Source: a virus. From it: a stretch of DNA of 25,608 nucleotides. The notes under the pieces are model-generated. The model made no database searches, had not been told where the DNA came from, and saw only the letters and a program-made list of their open reading frames with translations. The stretch spans positions 1 to 25,608 of IMG/VR virus record IMGVR_UViG_3300002144_000433; one strand, written 5' to 3'. Position numbers and translations under genes: made by a program. Of this stretch, positions 2,769 through 19,488 are shown piece after piece (position 1 is the stretch's first letter; each line of letters begins with the position of its first letter).

Positions 2769-4928
2769 TCAAAATTGCAACGAGGTGCTGGTCATTGACG
2801 GCTTAACAACTGGCATTTCGTAGGCCATCGGATAGCCAAAAGCGTCACAGTTTGAGACGATAACGCCGCCCAAATCAAAGCACCCATGATTAGGGACCGT
2901 GATGCAGTAAACGTCGCTAAGCCCGCCTTGCTTTATTTGCGCAACTTCTACCGCAATGGACTGAGGATTTGTATCGGTTGATCGTAAAGTCTTCGCCGCA
3001 TCCAGCGCAAACTCTGATTTCATTGTCGATACCAGATGCTCGGCGGGCAGCAGCCCTGCAATTTCGTCCGCAAAACATTGCTCTATCAACGAGGTTGCTT
3101 TTGAATGCACCCCCGCAATGTGTGCATGTGTGGTCTTTGGTTTTTGCGTGAAGCGCTGACCCAGTCGCCTTGTAATGTTCTCTGTGCCAGTCAGCACCCG
3201 CTTCGCTGGCGTGCCATACCTTTGATGCTTCAATGGCCTCTCTGGGCATTGGCCTTGTGTGTCCAGCGTGGTGGTGGCGCATGTGTTCCGACGCAGTGAT
3301 AAGCTCAAGGTTCCCGCCATTATTGTTTGCCCTATCGTGGTCAACATGGTGGATGTGCCAATCTTTGCCTCTTGGGATAGGCCCGTTATGAAACGCCCAA
3401 ACGTCTCTGTGTAGCCTTGCACCGTCTGCCTGAAAGTAGTTTCCGCAAAGATAGTATTTTGTTCCGTTGAAATCTTGCTGGGTGTCGCTGACAACGATGG
3501 GCTGCATAGGATGTCTCCGGCGGTTAATTCATCAGCCCGAACCCACCCAGATGAAGAAAGGATTTTGTGGTCTAATGTCACTCGGAAACTATAGCCGTTT
3601 GAAAGCGTAACCGCAAGCGTCCTTTCACCCTCTCGTTTCAACCCGCCGTTGACGTATTGCACTTCTTTGCCGAATGGTCCGGTCACTGTCCCTCGCTCTG
3701 GAATGCAATCAAACCTAGTCTGCTTCCCGTTGGCAAAAACCATCGTTTCCCCCGAAAAACACTGATGGTCAAGCCCCGTTGTCTTGTCGGGTTCGCCCTG
3801 CTTGTTGTAGGGCTGCTGTTCAAGGCATCGCGCTGTTTCTGGGCATGTGTCAGGGTTGACGAACACGCGGCCCCGCTGGAAGCCCATATTGACGGCCAGC
3901 ACACGATCCTTAACCCTTGGATTGCTTGGCTTGGCCCGTATGGCGTAGCCTGCTTGGCGCAGTAGACCGATGTCTGACAATGACGCGCCCTTGCTGCTTG
4001 TATTCTTGCCGCTTGCGTCGGGGTAGATCGTGACGCTGTGGCCCTCGTATCGCTCGCCCATTGTGGCAATCATGCTTGGCGTATCAACGCCGCCTTTGAT
4101 TTCATCGACGCAGTGCCAATCGTTTTCGCGCAGAACATAAGCACACGCGGCCATATTGCCTACGTTGAAGTCCATGCCCAGCTTGATCGGCTCACCGGGT
4201 TGCAATGTCTCGCGGCTGCGGTTGGTCTCGCGGTTATATGAGTTGTAAACGCTGCCCGATGTCAGGTTGGTAAACTCGCCCATCAGATAGGCGCTGATCA
4301 GTTCTTCCGGGTAGGTATCCTTGAGCGACTGGATATAATCTGGCGGCAGGTATTTGTTATCCTCCGTTCTGGCCCGGATTAATCGCCTGCCATCGCCCGC
4401 GTCTTTTACAAAAATGCGATACATCGCCTTGAAGCCTTCGGGCGTTGACACAATGACCATTTGCCGAACGTTGCCAGCCCGCAATCGACCCATGAGTTTT
4501 TCAAATGCTGAATATGCTAGGTTTGTTTTAGCTGTGTCGAATTCGTCCAAGATAACCCATGCGGCATTGACGCCAATCAGCCGGTCGAATCGCTCCATGC
4601 TTTTGCATATGATGCGGGTTTGCTTTCCCGCAGCGGTGCAATAGAAAATCATCTCCGACTTGTTGAAGTGAAACGGAATGCCGAATTCATCGAGCGCGGC
4701 CTCCACCTCTGGTATCAAGATTTGCGTCAAAAGAGGGAAGTTCGGTTCTGTAATTATACCATCTGATCCTGGGTTTAGTAGCGCCAAGGTGCAAGCCTTG
4801 CGGGCAACGGCGTATGTCTTGCCGCCGCCGTAGCCGCTCACAAGCCCTAGAATGCGCGTGGTGGTGTCCTCTATCAGATCAAACTGGTGCGGCAGTAGGT
4901 CTATTGTCCTAGTGTTTGCAGCTGTCAA
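2769..4928 (-). CDS. terL: Terminase large subunit (packaging ATPase-nuclease) interrupted by an intein
   Basis: The ORF has 719 codons. The exteins are residues 1-389 and 694-719; the intein is 390-693. The ATPase domain shows Walker A SGYGGGKT (31-38), Walker B VILDEFD (about 125-131) and coupling motif STPEG (161-165). The nuclease domain shows GMDF (D253), IYPDAS (D304) and the split motif GLDHQ/CDAFGY, whose Asp695 is the expected third metal ligand. The intein therefore sits inside the nuclease active-site motif, and splicing should be needed for packaging. The spliced protein would be about 415 residues, normal for a compact TerL. The start is a TTG at 4928, because no suitable ATG exists; the first codons overlap the end of the upstream HNH gene by 20 bases. 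A GGTGG lies just upstream. This start is the least certain part. Confidence 0.92.
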   Translation of the reverse strand: MTAANTRTIDLLPHQFDLIEDTTTRILGLVSGYGGGKTYAVARKACTLALLNPGSDGIITEPNFPLLTQILIPEVEAALDEFGIPFHFNKSEMIFYCTAAGKQTRIICKSMERFDRLIGVNAAWVILDEFDTAKTNLAYSAFEKLMGRLRAGNVRQMVIVSTPEGFKAMYRIFVKDAGDGRRLIRARTEDNKYLPPDYIQSLKDTYPEELISAYLMGEFTNLTSGSVYNSYNRETNRSRETLQPGEPIKLGMDFNVGNMAACAYVLRENDWHCVDEIKGGVDTPSMIATMGERYEGHSVTIYPDASGKNTSSKGASLSDIGLLRQAGYAIRAKPSNPRVKDRVLAVNMGFQRGRVFVNPDTCPETARCLEQQPYNKQGEPDKTTGLDHQCFSGETMVFANGKQTRFDCIPERGTVTGPFGKEVQYVNGGLKREGERTLAVTLSNGYSFRVTLDHKILSSSGWVRADELTAGDILCSPSLSATPSKISTEQNTIFAETTFRQTVQGYTETFGRFITGLSQEAKIGTSTMLTTIGQTIMAGTLSLSLRRNTCATTTLDTQGQCPERPLKHQRYGTPAKRVLTGTENITRRLGQRFTQKPKTTHAHIAGVHSKATSLIEQCFADEIAGLLPAEHLVSTMKSEFALDAAKTLRSTDTNPQSIAVEVAQIKQGGLSDVYCITVPNHGCFDLGGVIVSNCDAFGYPMAYEMPVVKPSMTSTSLQF
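2850..3761 (-). other. Intein (Hint splicing element) in TerL, residues 390-693
   Basis: The 304-residue intein begins with Cys390 (CFSGETMVF, block A). It has a block B TLDHKIL (Thr451, His454) and a following GWVRADELTAGDIL strand. It ends with a block F/G region DVYCITVPNHGCFDLGG then VIVSN, followed by Cys694 as the +1 nucleophile. Block G has Ser rather than the usual His before the terminal Asn, a known variation that may slow splicing. Between about residues 475 and 655 the intein frame has no recognisable endonuclease motifs and is rich in Thr, Gln and Ser. That stretch coincides with an HNH gene read in another frame. The family assignment is strong because both Hint ends are present and removing the segment restores a canonical DHxxDAxGY TerL motif. 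Confidence 0.93.
2917..3507 (-). CDS. HNH endonuclease with two zinc-finger motifs, nested out of frame inside the TerL intein
   Basis: The 196-residue product is read in the +2 frame relative to terL. Its N-terminus (FNGTKYYLCGNYFQ, ARLHRDVWAFHNGPIPRGKD) and the HNH core HIHHVDHDRANNNGGNLELI (51-70) match the free-standing phage HNH type. The C-terminal half holds two CxxC-type zinc-finger motifs (CTHCGGAF with FCGRNC, and CAGCGEDF with HCGRSC). The ATG at 3507 has its own Shine-Dalgarno, GGAG with a 7-base spacer. The gene starts just after the N-terminal Hint segment, and its TAG stop (2917-2919) overlaps the codons just before block F. It is inferred to be the homing endonuclease that spreads this intein, translated separately. 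Its recognisable motifs argue against a chance open frame. Confidence 0.88.
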   Translation of the reverse strand: MQPIVVSDTQQDFNGTKYYLCGNYFQADGARLHRDVWAFHNGPIPRGKDWHIHHVDHDRANNNGGNLELITASEHMRHHHAGHTRPMPREAIEASKVWHASEAGADWHREHYKATGSALHAKTKDHTCTHCGGAFKSNLVDRAMFCGRNCRAAARRASGIDNEIRVCAGCGEDFTINRYKSSVHCGRSCANKARRA

Positions 4929-5715
4929 AATGCCACCGCTTCATGTTTGAGACGCTGCCTATTTTTCCGCAGTTAGGGCATTCCGCTTTACGCTTTGCTT
5001 TCTCCGATATTTTGGCCCTTGTCGCGTCTGATTGCGACTTGCCAAACATGGGGTTTTTGTCGCCTGTTATTTTCGCGCCGTTCCCAAAGTTTGGGTTCTT
5101 ATCCCCGCGCGTATCATATGCGCCAGCCACGCCAGAAACCCGTTTCCGGTATCTTGTGTTCAGCGCCTTGAGCGCATCGCACGTTTCAACTAGGTCGCGG
5201 TCGATCCTGTTACGCACCGTCAAATCAACCGTGAACGGGCGCGGATTATAACTTCTGACAGAAGATATTATATAACCGACTTCGTTGTTTTTTTTCCCGT
5301 ATCTCGGATGGTTTTTTCCAGCAATAGACGGCCTAGGCCCACGCATTTTGGCCGACGCTTCTAAGGAATGCGTCTTCCCCCTGAATGGGTTGTTCTTCGT
5401 GTAATAGTCAGACCGCCATTCTGCGTCTTTCCTAGCTATCAAGTCATACGTTCGCGACGTTACATTGACGCCACGGGCCGATTTTGTATTTCCGCGCGAC
5501 ATATACGCCAATGCCGCCCACATTTTCCCGCCGTGGATTCTTGCCAGCAACCGATGCGCCACAAAATGCGCCTTTGGTGTAAGTCTGACGATATTGGACG
5601 GATCGTCACCACCGCCAAGGCTTCTTGGCAATATGTGGTGCCTTTCGGCGCACCCCTGCAAATCCCTCATCTTGAAGGTGCGCACAAGTTGTTCATAAGT
5701 TGCTTGATTGTCCAT
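4909..5715 (-). CDS. HNH homing endonuclease with NUMOD3-like repeats, between terS and terL
   Basis: The protein has 268 residues. Residues 24-57 give an HNH motif (ERHHILPRSLGGGDDPSNIV, then HFVAHRLL). Short Gly-Lys repeats follow, such as NPFRGKTHSLEASAKM and NPMFGKSQSDATRAKI, resembling NUMOD3 modules that bind DNA in homing endonucleases. The C-terminus has a zinc-binding look (CPNCGKIG, then HFDSCKH). The gene starts 15 bases after the terS stop with a poor ribosome binding site, and its last codons overlap the start of terL. It appears to have inserted at the terS-terL junction. The region is more AT-rich than its neighbours, in keeping with acquired DNA. Confidence 0.85.
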   Translation of the reverse strand: MDNQATYEQLVRTFKMRDLQGCAERHHILPRSLGGGDDPSNIVRLTPKAHFVAHRLLARIHGGKMWAALAYMSRGNTKSARGVNVTSRTYDLIARKDAEWRSDYYTKNNPFRGKTHSLEASAKMRGPRPSIAGKNHPRYGKKNNEVGYIISSVRSYNPRPFTVDLTVRNRIDRDLVETCDALKALNTRYRKRVSGVAGAYDTRGDKNPNFGNGAKITGDKNPMFGKSQSDATRAKISEKAKRKAECPNCGKIGSVSNMKRWHFDSCKH

Positions 5716-14005: not shown

Positions 14006-15778
14006 ATGCTGATATTTGACGTTGAGTGCTATCGAAATTTCTTCCACGTCGCGTTTATGAACGCCGCCGGAAGGGTCGCGTCCGTTGAGATGCGCGACGA
14101 TGAAAAGCTGGATGTCGCAAAGCTGGCGCACCGAATGCGCAGCGACACATTGCTGGGCTTTAACAACAAAGCGTATGACAACATCATAATTGCCGCCGCG
14201 CTTGAAAACCGCACCTGCGCAGAATTAAAAGCCCTTTCCGACAAGATCATAAAAAGCAACCTGCCAAGCTGGCGCGTTGCGCAGGGCGAGGGCATCCGCG
14301 AGCCGCGCGGCTGGGACACCATCGACATCATCGAAGTGCTGCCCGGTCAGGCCAGCTTGAAAATATACGGCGCACGGATCGGATCGGCCAAGCTGCAAGA
14401 CCTGCCCTATGAACCGTCGGCAACGCTGACACATGCGCAGATGGATGAAGTCGGCGCGTATTGCGTCAATGACCTGCGCGTGACGAAAGCCCTTGCCGAC
14501 ACCATCGCGCCCCAGCTTGCACTGCGTGTTGATATGGGCAAGCAATACGGCGTTGACCTGCGATCAAAGTCAGATGCGCAGATTGCCGAGGTGGTTTTAA
14601 AGTCCGAGATCGAGGCGCAATCGAAGACCACGCTGCGCCCGCTGAGAATAGATGATGACGCGACAGTCCGCTACGCTGATCCGGGCATTGTTAGTTTTGA
14701 CGATCCGGCGATTAGCGACATTTTCAAACAGATTTGCGCGCATGACTTTGAACTGTCGGGCAACGGGTCTGTGAAAATGCCAAAGTGGCTTTCCGATACC
14801 ATGATAAAAATTGGTGACGGGGCGTATCAAATGGGAATCGGCGGCCTGCACTCAACCGAAAAGGGGCAAGGTGTTCGCGCTGGCAAAGACCACATGCTTT
14901 TCGAGTTGGATGTTGCGTCGTATTATCCGAGCATCATCTTGCAGCAAGGTCTTGAGCCTGAAAATATGATCGGGCATTTCCTGCCCGTTTACCAAAGCAT
15001 CGTGACGCGCCGCCTTGAGGCCAAGCACACTGGCGATAAGGTGACAGCCAACACGCTGAAGATTGTCGTTAACGGATCGTTCGGAAAGCTGGGCAGCAAG
15101 TTCAGCAACCTTTACGCGCCCAATCTTATGATACAAACCACGATAACGGGTCAGCTTTGCCTTTTGATGCTGATTGAGCGGCTGACCGCTATCGGCGCAA
15201 AGGTGGTGAGCGCCAACACCGACGGCGTGGTTATCTTTGCGCCTAAAGCAATGAACGGCGACATTGAGCAAGTGTCGTTTGATTGGCAGATGGACACCAG
15301 CTATGAACTTGAGCGCACCGAATACCGCGCGCTGTATAGCCGGGACGTGAACAGTTACATCGCTGTAAAGCCCGACGGTTCAACTAAAACAAAGGGCGCA
15401 CTTGGCGCGTCCAGCCTGAGCAAAAACCCCGACTTTGGAATTGTTGCCGAGGCTGTTGCTGCGCAGGTATCAGGGCAAGCCGACTTTCGTGACGTGATCC
15501 GCGACTGCGAAGACATCCGCAAGTTTGTGTCTGTTCGCAAAGTGACGGGCGGGGCAACATGGCAGGGCAAGCCGATTGGCAAGTCGGTGCGGTTTTATTA
15601 TTCCGATGCTGTCGAGCCGGATCAGGGCATCCTTTACAAGATCAACGGGAACAAGGTGCCGAAGTCTGACGGGGCCAGGCCCTTGATGGACCTGCCCGAC
15701 ACGTTCCCGCCGGACGTTGAGCGGGAAAGGTATGTTGGCATGGCGATGAAAGTATTGGCGGGGATTGGTTATGCTTAA
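14006..15778 (+). CDS. DNA polymerase, family B-like with 3'-5' exonuclease domain
   Basis: The 590-residue polymerase has a proofreading domain: Exo I FDVE (D5, E7), Exo II GFNNKAYDN (51-59) and Exo III YCVNDLRV (152-159). The polymerase domain follows with motif A LDVASYYPSI (301-310), motif B KIVVNGSFGKLG (352-363) and motif C SANTDG (402-407). Motif C has Asn where the first Asp of the usual DTDS is expected, a variation seen in some phage polymerases. It is short for family B (often 700-900 residues). It should be the replicative polymerase. GAGG precedes the ATG. It sits downstream of a terminator, so it may have its own promoter or rely on readthrough. Confidence 0.9.
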   Translation: MLIFDVECYRNFFHVAFMNAAGRVASVEMRDDEKLDVAKLAHRMRSDTLLGFNNKAYDNIIIAAALENRTCAELKALSDKIIKSNLPSWRVAQGEGIREPRGWDTIDIIEVLPGQASLKIYGARIGSAKLQDLPYEPSATLTHAQMDEVGAYCVNDLRVTKALADTIAPQLALRVDMGKQYGVDLRSKSDAQIAEVVLKSEIEAQSKTTLRPLRIDDDATVRYADPGIVSFDDPAISDIFKQICAHDFELSGNGSVKMPKWLSDTMIKIGDGAYQMGIGGLHSTEKGQGVRAGKDHMLFELDVASYYPSIILQQGLEPENMIGHFLPVYQSIVTRRLEAKHTGDKVTANTLKIVVNGSFGKLGSKFSNLYAPNLMIQTTITGQLCLLMLIERLTAIGAKVVSANTDGVVIFAPKAMNGDIEQVSFDWQMDTSYELERTEYRALYSRDVNSYIAVKPDGSTKTKGALGASSLSKNPDFGIVAEAVAAQVSGQADFRDVIRDCEDIRKFVSVRKVTGGATWQGKPIGKSVRFYYSDAVEPDQGILYKINGNKVPKSDGARPLMDLPDTFPPDVERERYVGMAMKVLAGIGYA

Positions 15779-16772
15779 AGTGCTAGACCTATTCAGCGGC
15801 ATAGGCGGTTTCAGCCTTGGCCTTGACCGGGCGGGCGGTTTTGAAACCGTGGCCTTCTGCGAAATTGAACCATTCCCCCGCAAGGTTCTTGCGAAACATT
15901 GGCCGGAGGTGCCTTACTATGAAGACGTTACCAAACTCACAGGCGACATTCTGGCAGGGGACGGAATTGGCCCCATCGACGTCATCACAGGCGGATTCCC
16001 GTGCCAAGACATTAGCTGCGCTGGAAAGCAAGCAGGCATCGGCGAAGGCACCCGCAGCGGATTGTGGTCCGAAATCGTCAGACTTATTGGCGAACTGGCA
16101 CCCCGCTACGTCATCGTGGAGAACGTCGCAGCATTGCTTAGTGGCCCTAGCGAACAACGAGGGGGATGGTTTGGCTCAATTCTCGGAGACTTGGCCGAGT
16201 GCGGGTATGATGCGGAATGGGAAAACATACCGGCGTCAGCCTTGGGCGCTCCCCATCGCCGCGAAAGGGTCTGGGTTGTGGCTTACCCCAAGAAAATCGG
16301 ACACGGGGAAGGGCGAGAAGCAGGAGACATTTTTAAAGCGCATGGGGGATCGTTCAGATCGTTGTGCGCAAAGCTTGGCCGCGCAGGTGAACAACCGGAG
16401 AACATGGCCAACGCCGACAAAATCAGACTACAAGGGGCCGAACATGAGCGGCGGGAAATCGGCATCCTGCCACGGCTTGGCGACTATAGTGGCAAAGACA
16501 ATGTGGCCGACGCCGCAAGCCAGCGACCACAGGGACAGGGGGAACCTGAGCAACCCGTCAGTGCAACGCCGCCTAGCGATAGGCAAGCAAGTATCCTTGG
16601 GGCAATCCGTGTCGTTAGAGAGTGGAGCGTTGAACCCGACGTGGGTCGAGTGGCTAATGGGGTTCCCCAGCGGGTGGACCGACTTAAAGGATTAGGCAAC
16701 GCAGTTGTCCCGCAAATCCCCGAACTGATAGGCCGCGCGATTATGCAGGCGGAAAAGGCGAAAAATGCTTGA
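15771..16772 (+). CDS. dcm: C5-cytosine DNA methyltransferase
   Basis: The 333-residue enzyme shows the m5C motifs in order: I DLFSGIGGFSLGL (6-18), IV GGFPCQDIS with catalytic Cys78, VI VIVENVAAL (ENV 117-119), VIII PHRRERVWVV (161-170) and X GLGNAVVPQIPELIGRAI near the end. The target-recognition region carries repeated NMANADKIRLQG and NVADAASQRPQG elements. It probably protects phage DNA from restriction. Its ATG at 15771 overlaps the polymerase stop by eight bases; a longer TTG start is less likely. A second long ORF occupies its +1 frame, so much of this gene appears to encode two proteins. Confidence 0.93.
   Translation: MLKVLDLFSGIGGFSLGLDRAGGFETVAFCEIEPFPRKVLAKHWPEVPYYEDVTKLTGDILAGDGIGPIDVITGGFPCQDISCAGKQAGIGEGTRSGLWSEIVRLIGELAPRYVIVENVAALLSGPSEQRGGWFGSILGDLAECGYDAEWENIPASALGAPHRRERVWVVAYPKKIGHGEGREAGDIFKAHGGSFRSLCAKLGRAGEQPENMANADKIRLQGAEHERREIGILPRLGDYSGKDNVADAASQRPQGQGEPEQPVSATPPSDRQASILGAIRVVREWSVEPDVGRVANGVPQRVDRLKGLGNAVVPQIPELIGRAIMQAEKAKNA
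15919..16695 (+). CDS. Overprinted ORF in the +1 frame of the cytosine methyltransferase gene
   Basis: An ATG at 15919 with GGAGGT eight bases upstream opens a 258-codon frame inside the methyltransferase gene. The product has SDLLANWHPATSSWRTSQHC (54-73), FSETWPSAGMMRNGKTY (88-104), two WPTP motifs (163-166 and 196-199) and a C-terminal NPTWVEWLMGFPSGWTDL (239-256). I recall proteins with these WPTP and NPxWVEWLMGxPxGWT features from phage and bacterial genomes, often next to cytosine methyltransferase genes. The motifs mirror the methyltransferase frame: WPTPxxSD arises from the MANAD/VADA repeats, and the C-terminal motif from EPDVGRVANGVP. Function is unknown. The strong ribosome site and length support translation; a by-product of conserved methyltransferase DNA is the alternative. 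Confidence 0.6.
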   Translation: MKTLPNSQATFWQGTELAPSTSSQADSRAKTLAALESKQASAKAPAADCGPKSSDLLANWHPATSSWRTSQHCLVALANNEGDGLAQFSETWPSAGMMRNGKTYRRQPWALPIAAKGSGLWLTPRKSDTGKGEKQETFLKRMGDRSDRCAQSLAAQVNNRRTWPTPTKSDYKGPNMSGGKSASCHGLATIVAKTMWPTPQASDHRDRGNLSNPSVQRRLAIGKQVSLGQSVSLESGALNPTWVEWLMGFPSGWTDLKD

Positions 16773-17047: not shown

Positions 17048-17242
17048 ATGACAACTCCTTGGAAGCGACACGTTAGAATTGGCGACTGCGACCTGTATCT
17101 GGGAGATTGCCTTGAGGTGATGCCCGCGCTTGGAAAGGTGGATGCTGTTGTTGCCTGCAAGCGCGTCCAGCAAGCATACGATCAGCCGGGCTTGTTCGTT
17201 GAAAAGCCAACACCACCAACACAAGAGGGCTTTGAATTATGA
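17048..17242 (+). pseudogene. Internally deleted remnant of an amino-methyltransferase gene
   Basis: The 64-residue ORF begins with a typical N6/N4 DNA methyltransferase N-terminus (RIGDCDLYLGDCLEVMPALG then KVDAVV), which in intact enzymes leads directly into TDPPY. Here it jumps at residues 35-36 (about 17150-17156) to ACKRVQQAYDQPGLF and VEKPTPPTQEGFEL, the typical C-terminal tail of such enzymes. The catalytic DPPY motif and nearly the whole enzyme body are gone, but the frame is intact and the stop still overlaps the helicase ATG as ATGA. It cannot be a working methyltransferase. The retained coupling suggests it is kept to translate the helicase. Confidence 0.78.
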
Positions 17243-19488
17243 CCCTGCAACGTGAAGACCTGCACGAATACCAACACCGCGCCGTTGATTACGTTATAAC
17301 CGAGGGTCGCTGCATGTTGGCCCTTGGGCTCGGCCTCGGTAAGACGACATCAACGCTGACCGCGATCAGCGACATGGTTGGTGCGGGTGTTGTCTCAAAG
17401 GTGCTGATTATAGCCCCCCTGCGCGTCTGCAATAGCGTCTGGGTGCAAGAGGCCCAGAAGTGGGAACACACGCGCCACCTGCGCGTCTCTGTGGCCACGG
17501 GAAGCGCTAAGGCGCGCACGACGGCGCTGTTCAAAACGGCTGACGTTTATGTCACGAACAAGGAAAACGTGCAGTGGATTATTGAGCGCGCCGGTAAGAA
17601 ATGGCCGTTCGATATGATCGTGATTGACGAAAGCAGCACATTCAAAAACAGCCAGTCAAAACGCTTCAAGGCACTGCGCAAAATGCTGCCGTTTGTAGAG
17701 CGGCTGGTTTTGCTGACAGGGACGCCCAGCCCGAACGGGTTGCAAGACTTATGGGCGCAGATGTTTCTTGTGGATCACGGCGAGCGTTTGGGCCGCACAC
17801 TGACGGGCTTTCGGGATCGGTTCTTTGACAAGGATTACATGGGCTACAAATACACGATCCGCGACGGGTCCGCATCAAAGATCGAGGGATTGGTCGCTGA
17901 TAAAATCATCCACATGAGCGCCGACGATTATCTCGACTTGCCCGACCGCATTGAAATCGACGTGCCTGTTGATCTTGGACCAAAGGCAACCGCGCAATAC
18001 AAAGAATTTGAGCGAACCTCACTGGCCGAACTGGATGACGGCGATGAAGTCGAGGCGATCAGCGCGGCAGTGCTGGCCAACAAGTTGATGCAGTTTTCAA
18101 ACGGCGCGCTTTACACCGACCCTAACGGCGCGTGGTCGGCTGTTCACTCCGCAAAGCTGGACGCTTTGTCTGATCTGGTGGACGACAACACCGGCGAAAC
18201 GATGCTGGTCGCTTACAATTTCAAAAGCGACCTGGCGCGCATCAAAGACAGGTTTCCGCAGGCGGTTGTTTTGGACAAAAGCCAAGACACGATTGATCGG
18301 TGGAACAGGGGCGAAATTGAGATGCTTTTGGCCCATCCCGCATGCTTACATCCAGCAACTGAAGTGTTGACTGAAAGGCGGGGTTGGGTTAAGATCATCG
18401 AAGTTGAAACAAGTGACCTTGTCTTTGACGGCGTGGAATTTGTTTCTCATTCGGGTTGTTCTTTTTCTGGGATAAAACCAGTTATTGAACGATTTGGCAT
18501 AACCATGACCCACGAGCACAAGATACTTGTGGGCGATGATTGGGTTAAGGGTCGAGATGTATACGATTGTGAACGAACAAGAGAGGTTGCGGCATACACC
18601 TACGCGGGTGATGACGCTTATCTTTGTGAAATGCTCAAACTGCGGCACGGAACAGTTTGTGGCAAAGCAGAACGTCCAAAGGGCGAACCGCGAGGGGCGC
18701 GAGAAATGCCAATTTTGTTGGGGAGAGGACCATCACAACATGACAGGCACTCGCATCTGGCGGATATGGCACGGGATGGTTCAACGATGCACCAAAACAT
18801 ATGGGACCAGCTTCGAAAGTTACGGGGGCGCTGGGCGCGGGGTCAGTCAGGACTGGTTGGCTTTCAAAAACTTTTATCGGGAAATGCGCGATGGTTACGA
18901 GGATCATTTGACGCTGGACCGCATCGACAACTCGCAGGGCTACAGCAAGGGAAATTGCCGCTGGGCAACGAACATGCAGCAACAGGCAAACAAAACCAAC
19001 AATCGCGTGGTGTATTATCTTGGGCAGGAAATGCACTTGGCCGAGTTTTGCCGAAAGGCTGGTGTGAGCAGGGGGGCCATATCACCAAGGCTTGCACTAG
19101 GAATGAGGGGGGACGAAGCGTTGGCAGACTACAAAAAAAGCAAATACCCGAAAGGTCGCAAATCTCGAAAGTCTATGACCTAGTTGACTGTGGGCCTCGC
19201 AGTCGGTTCGCCGTGCGAAACGCGGCGGGTGAGGTATTCATTTCTCACAATTCCGCCGGGCATGGGTTAAATCTGCAATCAGGCGGCGCGCTTTGCGTTT
19301 GGTTTGGCCTCAACTGGTCGCTTGAACTCACGCAGCAATTCAACGCGCGGCTTCACAGGCAGGGCCAGGGTCGCCCGGTGCGCATTGTGCGACTGCTTTG
19401 CACAGATACGATTGACGCGCGCGTTGCCGCTGTGCTGCGCGATAAAGACGCCACGCAATCATCACTGCTCGCTGCGCTCAAGCCGTAA
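17239..19488 (+). CDS. SNF2-type DEAD-like helicase interrupted by an intein
   Basis: The ORF has 749 codons. The exteins are residues 1-368 and 672-749; the intein is 369-671. Motif I is GLGLGKTT (30-37), motif II VIDESS (128-133), motif III LLTGTPSPNG (158-167). Motif V is split as AHPA/SAGHGLNLQ and motif VI is NARLHRQGQGRP (702-713). Removing the intein joins HPA to SAGHGLN, the usual sequence in phage SNF2 helicases. The mature protein would be about 446 residues. It is inferred to remodel forks or junctions together with the adjacent VRR-NUC nuclease. The ATG overlaps the methyltransferase remnant. Its last 220 bases are duplicated downstream. Confidence 0.92.
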   Translation: MTLQREDLHEYQHRAVDYVITEGRCMLALGLGLGKTTSTLTAISDMVGAGVVSKVLIIAPLRVCNSVWVQEAQKWEHTRHLRVSVATGSAKARTTALFKTADVYVTNKENVQWIIERAGKKWPFDMIVIDESSTFKNSQSKRFKALRKMLPFVERLVLLTGTPSPNGLQDLWAQMFLVDHGERLGRTLTGFRDRFFDKDYMGYKYTIRDGSASKIEGLVADKIIHMSADDYLDLPDRIEIDVPVDLGPKATAQYKEFERTSLAELDDGDEVEAISAAVLANKLMQFSNGALYTDPNGAWSAVHSAKLDALSDLVDDNTGETMLVAYNFKSDLARIKDRFPQAVVLDKSQDTIDRWNRGEIEMLLAHPACLHPATEVLTERRGWVKIIEVETSDLVFDGVEFVSHSGCSFSGIKPVIERFGITMTHEHKILVGDDWVKGRDVYDCERTREVAAYTYAGDDAYLCEMLKLRHGTVCGKAERPKGEPRGAREMPILLGRGPSQHDRHSHLADMARDGSTMHQNIWDQLRKLRGRWARGQSGLVGFQKLLSGNARWLRGSFDAGPHRQLAGLQQGKLPLGNEHAATGKQNQQSRGVLSWAGNALGRVLPKGWCEQGGHITKACTRNEGGRSVGRLQKKQIPERSQISKVYDLVDCGPRSRFAVRNAAGEVFISHNSAGHGLNLQSGGALCVWFGLNWSLELTQQFNARLHRQGQGRPVRIVRLLCTDTIDARVAAVLRDKDATQSSLLAALKP
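18343..19251 (+). other. Intein (Hint splicing element) in the SNF2 helicase, residues 369-671
   Basis: The 303-residue intein starts with Cys369 (CLHPATEVLTERRGWVKI, block A). It has block B ITMTHEHKILVGDDWVKG (Thr422, His425). It ends with KVYDLVDCGPRSRFAVRN and AAGEVFISHN, a regular block F/G with penultimate His670 and terminal Asn671. Ser672 is the +1 nucleophile. Between about residues 450 and 635 the intein frame is Gly/Arg/Gln-rich without endonuclease motifs; that DNA instead encodes an HNH protein in the +1 frame. All key splicing residues are present, so it should splice. Confidence 0.94.
18557..19183 (+). CDS. HNH-type endonuclease with zinc ribbon, nested out of frame inside the helicase intein
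   Basis: The 208-residue product is read in the +1 frame relative to the helicase. A zinc-ribbon (CSNC at 26-29, CQFC at 51-54) precedes GTRIWRIWHGMVQRCTK, SYGGAGRGVSQDWLAFKNFY and LTLDRIDNSQGYSKGNCRWA (118-137), the core of a common phage HNH family. A C-terminal HTH-like part follows (MHLAEFCRKAGVSRGAI). The chosen ATG has AAGGG five bases upstream; a TTG at 18527 is possible. The gene begins just after Hint block B and its TAG lies inside block F. It is inferred to be the homing enzyme of this intein, expressed separately. Confidence 0.87.
   Translation: MYTIVNEQERLRHTPTRVMTLIFVKCSNCGTEQFVAKQNVQRANREGREKCQFCWGEDHHNMTGTRIWRIWHGMVQRCTKTYGTSFESYGGAGRGVSQDWLAFKNFYREMRDGYEDHLTLDRIDNSQGYSKGNCRWATNMQQQANKTNNRVVYYLGQEMHLAEFCRKAGVSRGAISPRLALGMRGDEALADYKKSKYPKGRKSRKSMT

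Follow-up and report, generated by a model that had tools for sequence, protein, structure and literature searches.

Overlapping reading frames in a virus very probably encode two subunits of one C5-cytosine DNA methyltransferase

The window analyzed here, a stretch of 25,608 bases from virus record IMGVR_UViG_3300002144_000433, carries a C5-cytosine methyltransferase gene (alpha) whose +1 frame is open over most of its length. The question raised by this locus is whether the second frame (beta) is a gene or only a by-product of conserved methyltransferase DNA and, if it is a gene, what its protein contributes to the enzyme.

Gene layout and openness of the +1 frame

An earlier note on this DNA had described a 258-codon +1-frame reading frame inside the methyltransferase, preceded by a ribosome site, and had listed several motifs in its product. 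All of this was found in place: the frame runs from 15919 to 16695 within 15771-16772, GGAGGT at 15905-15910 is followed after 8 bases by the ATG at 15919, and every motif named is present in the +1-frame product. The features of the locus are:

15771 to 16772, plus strand: alpha, the C5-cytosine methyltransferase frame, 333 amino acids, with motifs I-VIII and X (PF00145 over residues 2-175; PHROG 363; confident AlphaFold core matching C5-methyltransferases)
15905 to 15910, plus strand: GGAGGT, ribosome site of beta within alpha codons, present in 32 of the 49 loci having the ATG
15919 to 16695, plus strand: beta, nested +1-frame gene, 258 amino acids, with the inferred recognition domain (TRD) and motif IX (PHROG 1008, E 2.5e-30; TRD pN/pS 0.23)
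16077 to 16280, plus strand: stretch conserved in alpha and beta alike, with TSSWRTSQ..FSETWPSAGMMRNG of beta lying over motifs VI-VIII of alpha (alpha synonymous diversity; pN/pS alpha 0.37, beta 0.65)
16279 to 16632, plus strand: TRD region of beta, with three WxTPxxSD repeats at 16279, 16405 and 16504 (beta-frame substitution periodicity; repeats)
16299 to 16670, plus strand: alpha linker, residues 177-300, predicted disordered and unconstrained as protein (pLDDT mostly below 50; alpha pN/pS 1.55)
16633 to 16686, plus strand: motif IX in beta, NPTWVEWLMGFPSGWTDL, as judged from the same motif before motif X in the alpha chain of Rickettsiales relatives and a weak M.HhaI alignment
16692 to 16769, plus strand: motif X in alpha (LGNAVVP...), with an alpha-type substitution pattern (0.15/0.12/0.52)

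Neighbours of the pair include an Enc34-type ssDNA-binding protein and a SNF2 helicase (17239-19488, plus strand); the latter seemingly carries an intein by eye (CLHPATEVLTERRGW... to ...FISHNSAGHG), for which a Pfam intein match was not returned. A methyltransferase near a SNF2-type gene is also seen in Escherichia coli E62 (L341, 615-1909 and 2261 onward), where a VRR-NUC domain protein, a C5-methyltransferase and a SNF2-related protein are grouped. The short reading frame at 17049-17242 (plus strand) resembles, by eye, the beginning of an N6/N4 DNA methyltransferase fused to a C-terminal tail, as if internally deleted. On the minus strand, the terminase large subunit (2769-4928) is split into parts by an intein-like domain (PF14890, E 2e-8, 34.6 bits against a curated cut-off of 35.8), and the adjoining gene (4909-5715) encodes an HNH endonuclease with NUMOD3 motifs, possibly a homing endonuclease.

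Taken by itself, the window offers no proof of coding in the length of its +1 frame: when alpha was synonymously recoded, the probability of an open +1 frame from motif VIII to motif X was 0.12, which is not significant. The stop count over related loci gave a different result. Across 74 of 89 non-redundant loci, 48 stops were observed in the +1 frame against 159 expected, while the control frame +2 had 444 against 419, so that openness across these loci is far from chance, although the loci are related sequences and the counts overstate the number of independent events. In 66 of 68 loci an uninterrupted beta frame reached from 57 codons ahead of motif VIII to the end of motif IX, the exceptions being L035, with two stops in beta, and L093, in which the motif-IX match was not recognised; L066 has one +1 stop upstream of motif VIII. 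For 49 loci chosen for having both frames open, alpha had on average a 0.07 chance of being open given beta, a value that serves only as a chance yardstick for the loci selected by motif IX.

Those loci, at least 80 of viral origin, were fetched by a DNA pattern for motif IX alone. Among the 80 matches listed, alpha lay in the -1 frame and ran past motif IX in 69, stood in another relation in 2 and itself contained motif IX in 3; the remaining 6 had no alpha in the fetched DNA, the match in several of them being close to an end of that DNA. Almost all homologues found overlap a C5-methyltransferase gene. The earlier note had proposed a search for proteins with this motif outside such genes, and the two that seemed free-standing, a Sphingomonas plasmid protein (L337, 1085-2176) and a Cronobacter phage JC01 protein (L340, 1105-2079), both annotated as 'hypothetical protein', proved to have a C5-methyltransferase unannotated in the -1 frame.

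Annotation of the pair is uneven in general. Only alpha is named in E. coli E62 and Acinetobacter phage ABMM1, and both frames are named in E. coli phage K1G (ORF31/ORF30) and Paenibacillus phage Jacopo (gp56/gp57). The nested second reading frames of K1G and Jacopo match PHROG 1008 ('DNA methyltransferase'), as does beta of the window, and their records hold no statement that the paired frames form one enzyme; K1G ORF30 is named 'Mte8-like'. Gene callers frequently report just one of the two frames, so that the other is lost, and specificity is unpredictable from such entries.

Selection along the overlap and the start of beta

To follow selection along the overlap, pairs of loci were aligned as DNA with the frame ignored, so that position 1 of an alpha codon is position 3 of a beta codon. 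The set comprised 68 loci with a located motif X, excluding those carrying motif IX in the alpha chain; limits on identity and coverage left 37 pairs, of which 14 disjoint ones were kept. Upstream of motif VI the substitution rates at alpha positions 1/2/3 were 0.13/0.10/0.40; the TRD region gave 0.36/0.14/0.12, motif IX 0.24/0.10/0.19 and motif X 0.15/0.12/0.52. In the TRD region position 1 exceeded position 3 in all 14 pairs and, since alpha position 1 is beta position 3, this region evolves as the beta gene. The pN/pS ratios of the same pairs followed this pattern. Upstream of beta the ratio for alpha was 0.11; over the 57 codons before motif VIII it was 0.37 for alpha and 0.65 for beta; in the TRD it was 0.23 for beta, 1.55 for alpha and 1.57 for the unused +2 frame; and over motif IX it was 0.58 for alpha and 0.34 for beta. 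The window compared with its relative L010 gave TRD values of 1.22 for alpha and 0.36 for beta. In a more divergent second set of 15 pairs, whose TRD alignments are less secure, the rates in this region were 0.36/0.22/0.25 and position 1 exceeded position 3 in only 8 pairs, the same direction with less clarity.

These results show that both frames are coding, and that the frame under selection changes from alpha to beta on entering the TRD region and returns to alpha at motif X. Where alpha reads through the TRD of beta it is an unconstrained linker.

The start of beta was examined through the codon choice of alpha. In a 62-locus group, alpha synonymous diversity was 0.47 and 0.38 of expectation in the 22 codons beginning at the consensus ATG, rose to 0.86-0.97 in the 30 codons after these and was 0.17-0.51 from there up to motif VIII; in window coordinates it was 0.17-0.51 in 16077-16256 and 0.87 in 16257-16280. 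A comparison of synonymous-site conservation in the methyltransferase had been suggested beforehand, and diversity is indeed reduced at the start of beta and before motif VIII. The alpha glutamate at the ribosome site is encoded by GAG in all 38 loci, a codon used for 96 of 298 glutamates elsewhere upstream; the alpha tyrosine at the beta start is encoded by TAT in 49 of 52, compared with 16 of 28 tyrosines elsewhere. The pattern used to find this site demands that the tyrosine be followed by Glu or Asp, a condition that favours ATG and is neutral on TAT/TAC and GAG/GAA; it located the site in 54 of 82 loci (28 not located), 5 of the 54 being without ATG. Some relatives have +1 stops downstream of the ATG position. 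Because of the low synonymous diversity and the conserved codon choice at both the ribosome site and the ATG, 15919 is very likely the start of beta in this clade, and it is not universal among the relatives. The predicted RNA structure at the beta start was not unusual (z -0.63).

The motifs of beta had been said to mirror conserved methyltransferase segments. This holds for SSWRTSQ, which overlies motif VI (ENV), and does not hold for WPTPxxSD, which overlies sequence unconstrained in the methyltransferase frame; NPTWVEWLMGFP overlies sequence constrained in both frames. Constraint on the methyltransferase accounts for only part of the conserved motifs of the alternate frame.

A probable methyltransferase in two chains

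Alpha matches PF00145 over residues 2-175 and also PHROG 363. Its AlphaFold model is confident for residues 1-175 and 311-333, with pLDDT below 50 over most of 177-300, and in a fold comparison the core of the model matches C5-methyltransferases. Motif IX is absent from alpha. Beta matches PHROG 1008 over residues 21-256 (E 2.5e-30); modelled alone by AlphaFold it gave a poor prediction (pLDDT 57, pTM 0.28), and a PDB profile search with beta returned no relevant match. The identity of its C-terminal end came from relatives in which the same stretch stands just before motif X within the alpha chain (L086, L087, L094, L095, L096, L098 and the Candidatus Megaera plasmid L336). The four such chains tested (L086, L094, L095 and L098) match PF00145 to its end, and the stretch of L095 aligns weakly with the part of M.HhaI before GNSVV. 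Judged by these alignments, the end of beta, NPTWVEWLMGFPSGWTDL, is motif IX. The PF00145 motif set is complete only across both chains, I-VIII and X in alpha and IX in beta, and from selection and position we infer that the TRD sits in beta.

The two reading frames very probably encode two subunits of a single C5-cytosine DNA methyltransferase, beta most likely supplying the DNA-recognition half that the enzyme otherwise misses. Alpha would form the large catalytic domain from motifs I-VIII, continue through a stretch without conserved sequence and complete the domain with motif X; since alpha has to pass through the DNA that encodes beta before it arrives at motif X, its middle is a linker under no sequence constraint. 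Beta would be initiated internally from its own ribosome site within alpha and form the small domain, TRD plus motif IX. The two chains would then assemble as large and small domain around the DNA, beta picking the site and alpha transferring the methyl group. In C5-methyltransferases most motifs are found in the large domain, with the variable region and motif IX in the small one, and fragments of such enzymes are able to assemble in the cell, as given in PMC3404938; the proposed pairing of alpha and beta fits both points of that text.

Three other explanations were weighed. That the +1 frame is open and seemingly conserved merely through conserved methyltransferase DNA, the annotation artefact offered as an alternative in the earlier note, is in keeping with the chance openness of the window taken alone (P = 0.12) and with the position of SSWRTSQ over motif VI. 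Against it, the TRD region evolves as non-coding sequence in the methyltransferase frame and as a gene in the +1 frame (pN/pS 1.55 and 0.23), position 1 exceeds position 3 in every one of the 14 pairs, and GAG is invariant at the ribosome site. The artefact has virtually no chance of being correct and is ruled out by the stop deficit, the periodicity and pN/pS; together with the codon choice at the start site, these lend strong support to the dual coding that the note had proposed. The note had also held that overlap of every homologue with the methyltransferase, joined with a lack of purifying selection or peptides in the alternate frame, would refute its reading; the overlap is nearly universal, and purifying selection in that frame is clear from pN/pS.

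Beta could instead be a protein in its own right, regulating or assisting a methyltransferase already complete in alpha, which by itself has the PF00145 match over residues 2-175 and motif X. Such an alpha would lack motif IX, and at the TRD position it is unconstrained and predicted to be disordered, while beta holds a motif that in other lineages is found within the methyltransferase chain itself; we regard this reading as very unlikely. The suggestion that the second protein may work with or regulate the methyltransferase thus stands in its first part, and not in the sense of a separate partner or regulator, since on this evidence beta is very probably part of the enzyme (TRD and motif IX). 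Programmed ribosomal frameshifting could also join the frames into one chain, motifs I-VIII from alpha followed by TRD and motif IX from beta. The collinear order of these parts agrees with it, as does the presence of alpha and motif IX in a single reading frame in 3 of the 80 motif-IX matches listed. The joined chain would be without motif X, which alpha keeps in frame, beta has a conserved ribosome site and ATG of its own, and alpha is open past motif IX in 69 of the 80 matches listed, leaving frameshifting very little probability. Two subunits of one enzyme, with the specificity half in beta, also explains what the 'WPTP...LNPxWVEWLMGFP' proteins are.

Relatives, known systems and exchange of the TRD

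Three architectures were found among the relatives. In the first, that of the window, alpha carries motifs I-VIII and X and beta the TRD and motif IX. In the second, alpha goes no further than motif VIII, and TRD, IX and X are all found in the +1 frame; its members are the mycobacteriophages L001 and L007, Dactylosporangium L101 and Kiritimatiellae L103, and in mycobacteriophage Medusa the annotated gp78 stops after motif VIII, with TRD, IX and X in gp77, the +1 gene. Alpha likewise ends early in L102, in whose +1 frame motif X was not seen. In the third, the TRD is in the +1 frame and motifs IX and X are in alpha (the L086/L094/L336 group and Arthrobacter phage 1191A, L006). Between L086 and L094, substitutions at alpha positions 1/2/3 numbered 93/25/17 in the TRD region, the pattern of a beta gene, and 6/4/17 in motif IX, the pattern of alpha. 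The TRD is thus beta-coded in both architectures with selection measurements, the first and the third.

Among 193 locus pairs at least 85% identical in DNA over alpha up to motif VIII, 163 had TRDs that aligned over less than 30% of the shorter one. By sequence comparison, TRDs appear to be exchanged as modules, each open in both frames. In the Paenibacillus polymyxa plasmid pAP1 (L335, 979-2469) motif IX occurs twice in the +1 frame, as LNPTWVECLMGFPLDWTS and then, past stops, as LNPAWVECLMGFPLGWTN, as if the TRD-IX unit had been duplicated.

In M.EcoHK31I the small gene is nested within the large one, in another frame. This two-polypeptide C5-methyltransferase (YGGCCR) has motifs I-VIII and X in its larger subunit and motif IX in its smaller one, according to PMC3404938. 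The layout of alpha and beta is the same, I-VIII and X without IX in the large chain and IX in the small one. The same source places the predicted TRD of M.EcoHK31I in the larger subunit, whereas selection places that of the window in beta. M.AquI (CYCGRG) is also a C5-methyltransferase split into two polypeptides (PMC3404938). There, as in mycobacteriophage gp78/gp77, the small subunit carries both IX and X, whereas in the window motif X lies in alpha and evolves as alpha; gp77 matches PHROG 1008, as beta of the window does.

With M.EcoHK31I, a two-polypeptide C5-methyltransferase whose small subunit carries motif IX is already known. A literature search, whose reach did not extend to the original 1995 description of EcoHK31I, did not find this arrangement described in phages. 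The placing of the TRD in beta, the nature of the alpha linker, the third architecture and the breadth in phages are tentatively regarded as novel, and TRD swapping under two-frame constraint, together with frequent one-frame annotation, looks new.

Taken as a whole, the relatives probably form a large and ancient class of phage and prophage C5-methyltransferases with catalytic and recognition domains in two frames, in which beta would be a swappable specificity subunit. The split point would drift, beta consisting of the TRD alone, of the TRD with IX, or of the TRD with both IX and X, while the TRD itself would remain in beta throughout, also in M.EcoHK31I, and many database entries would name one gene only. 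The role in the phage is probably self-methylation that shields its DNA from host restriction. The locus is a clear case in a bacterial virus of overlapping frames that encode two domains of one enzyme, the selected frame switching along the gene. If beta sets specificity, TRD swaps among near-identical alpha chains would make change of phage methylation pattern against host restriction testable.
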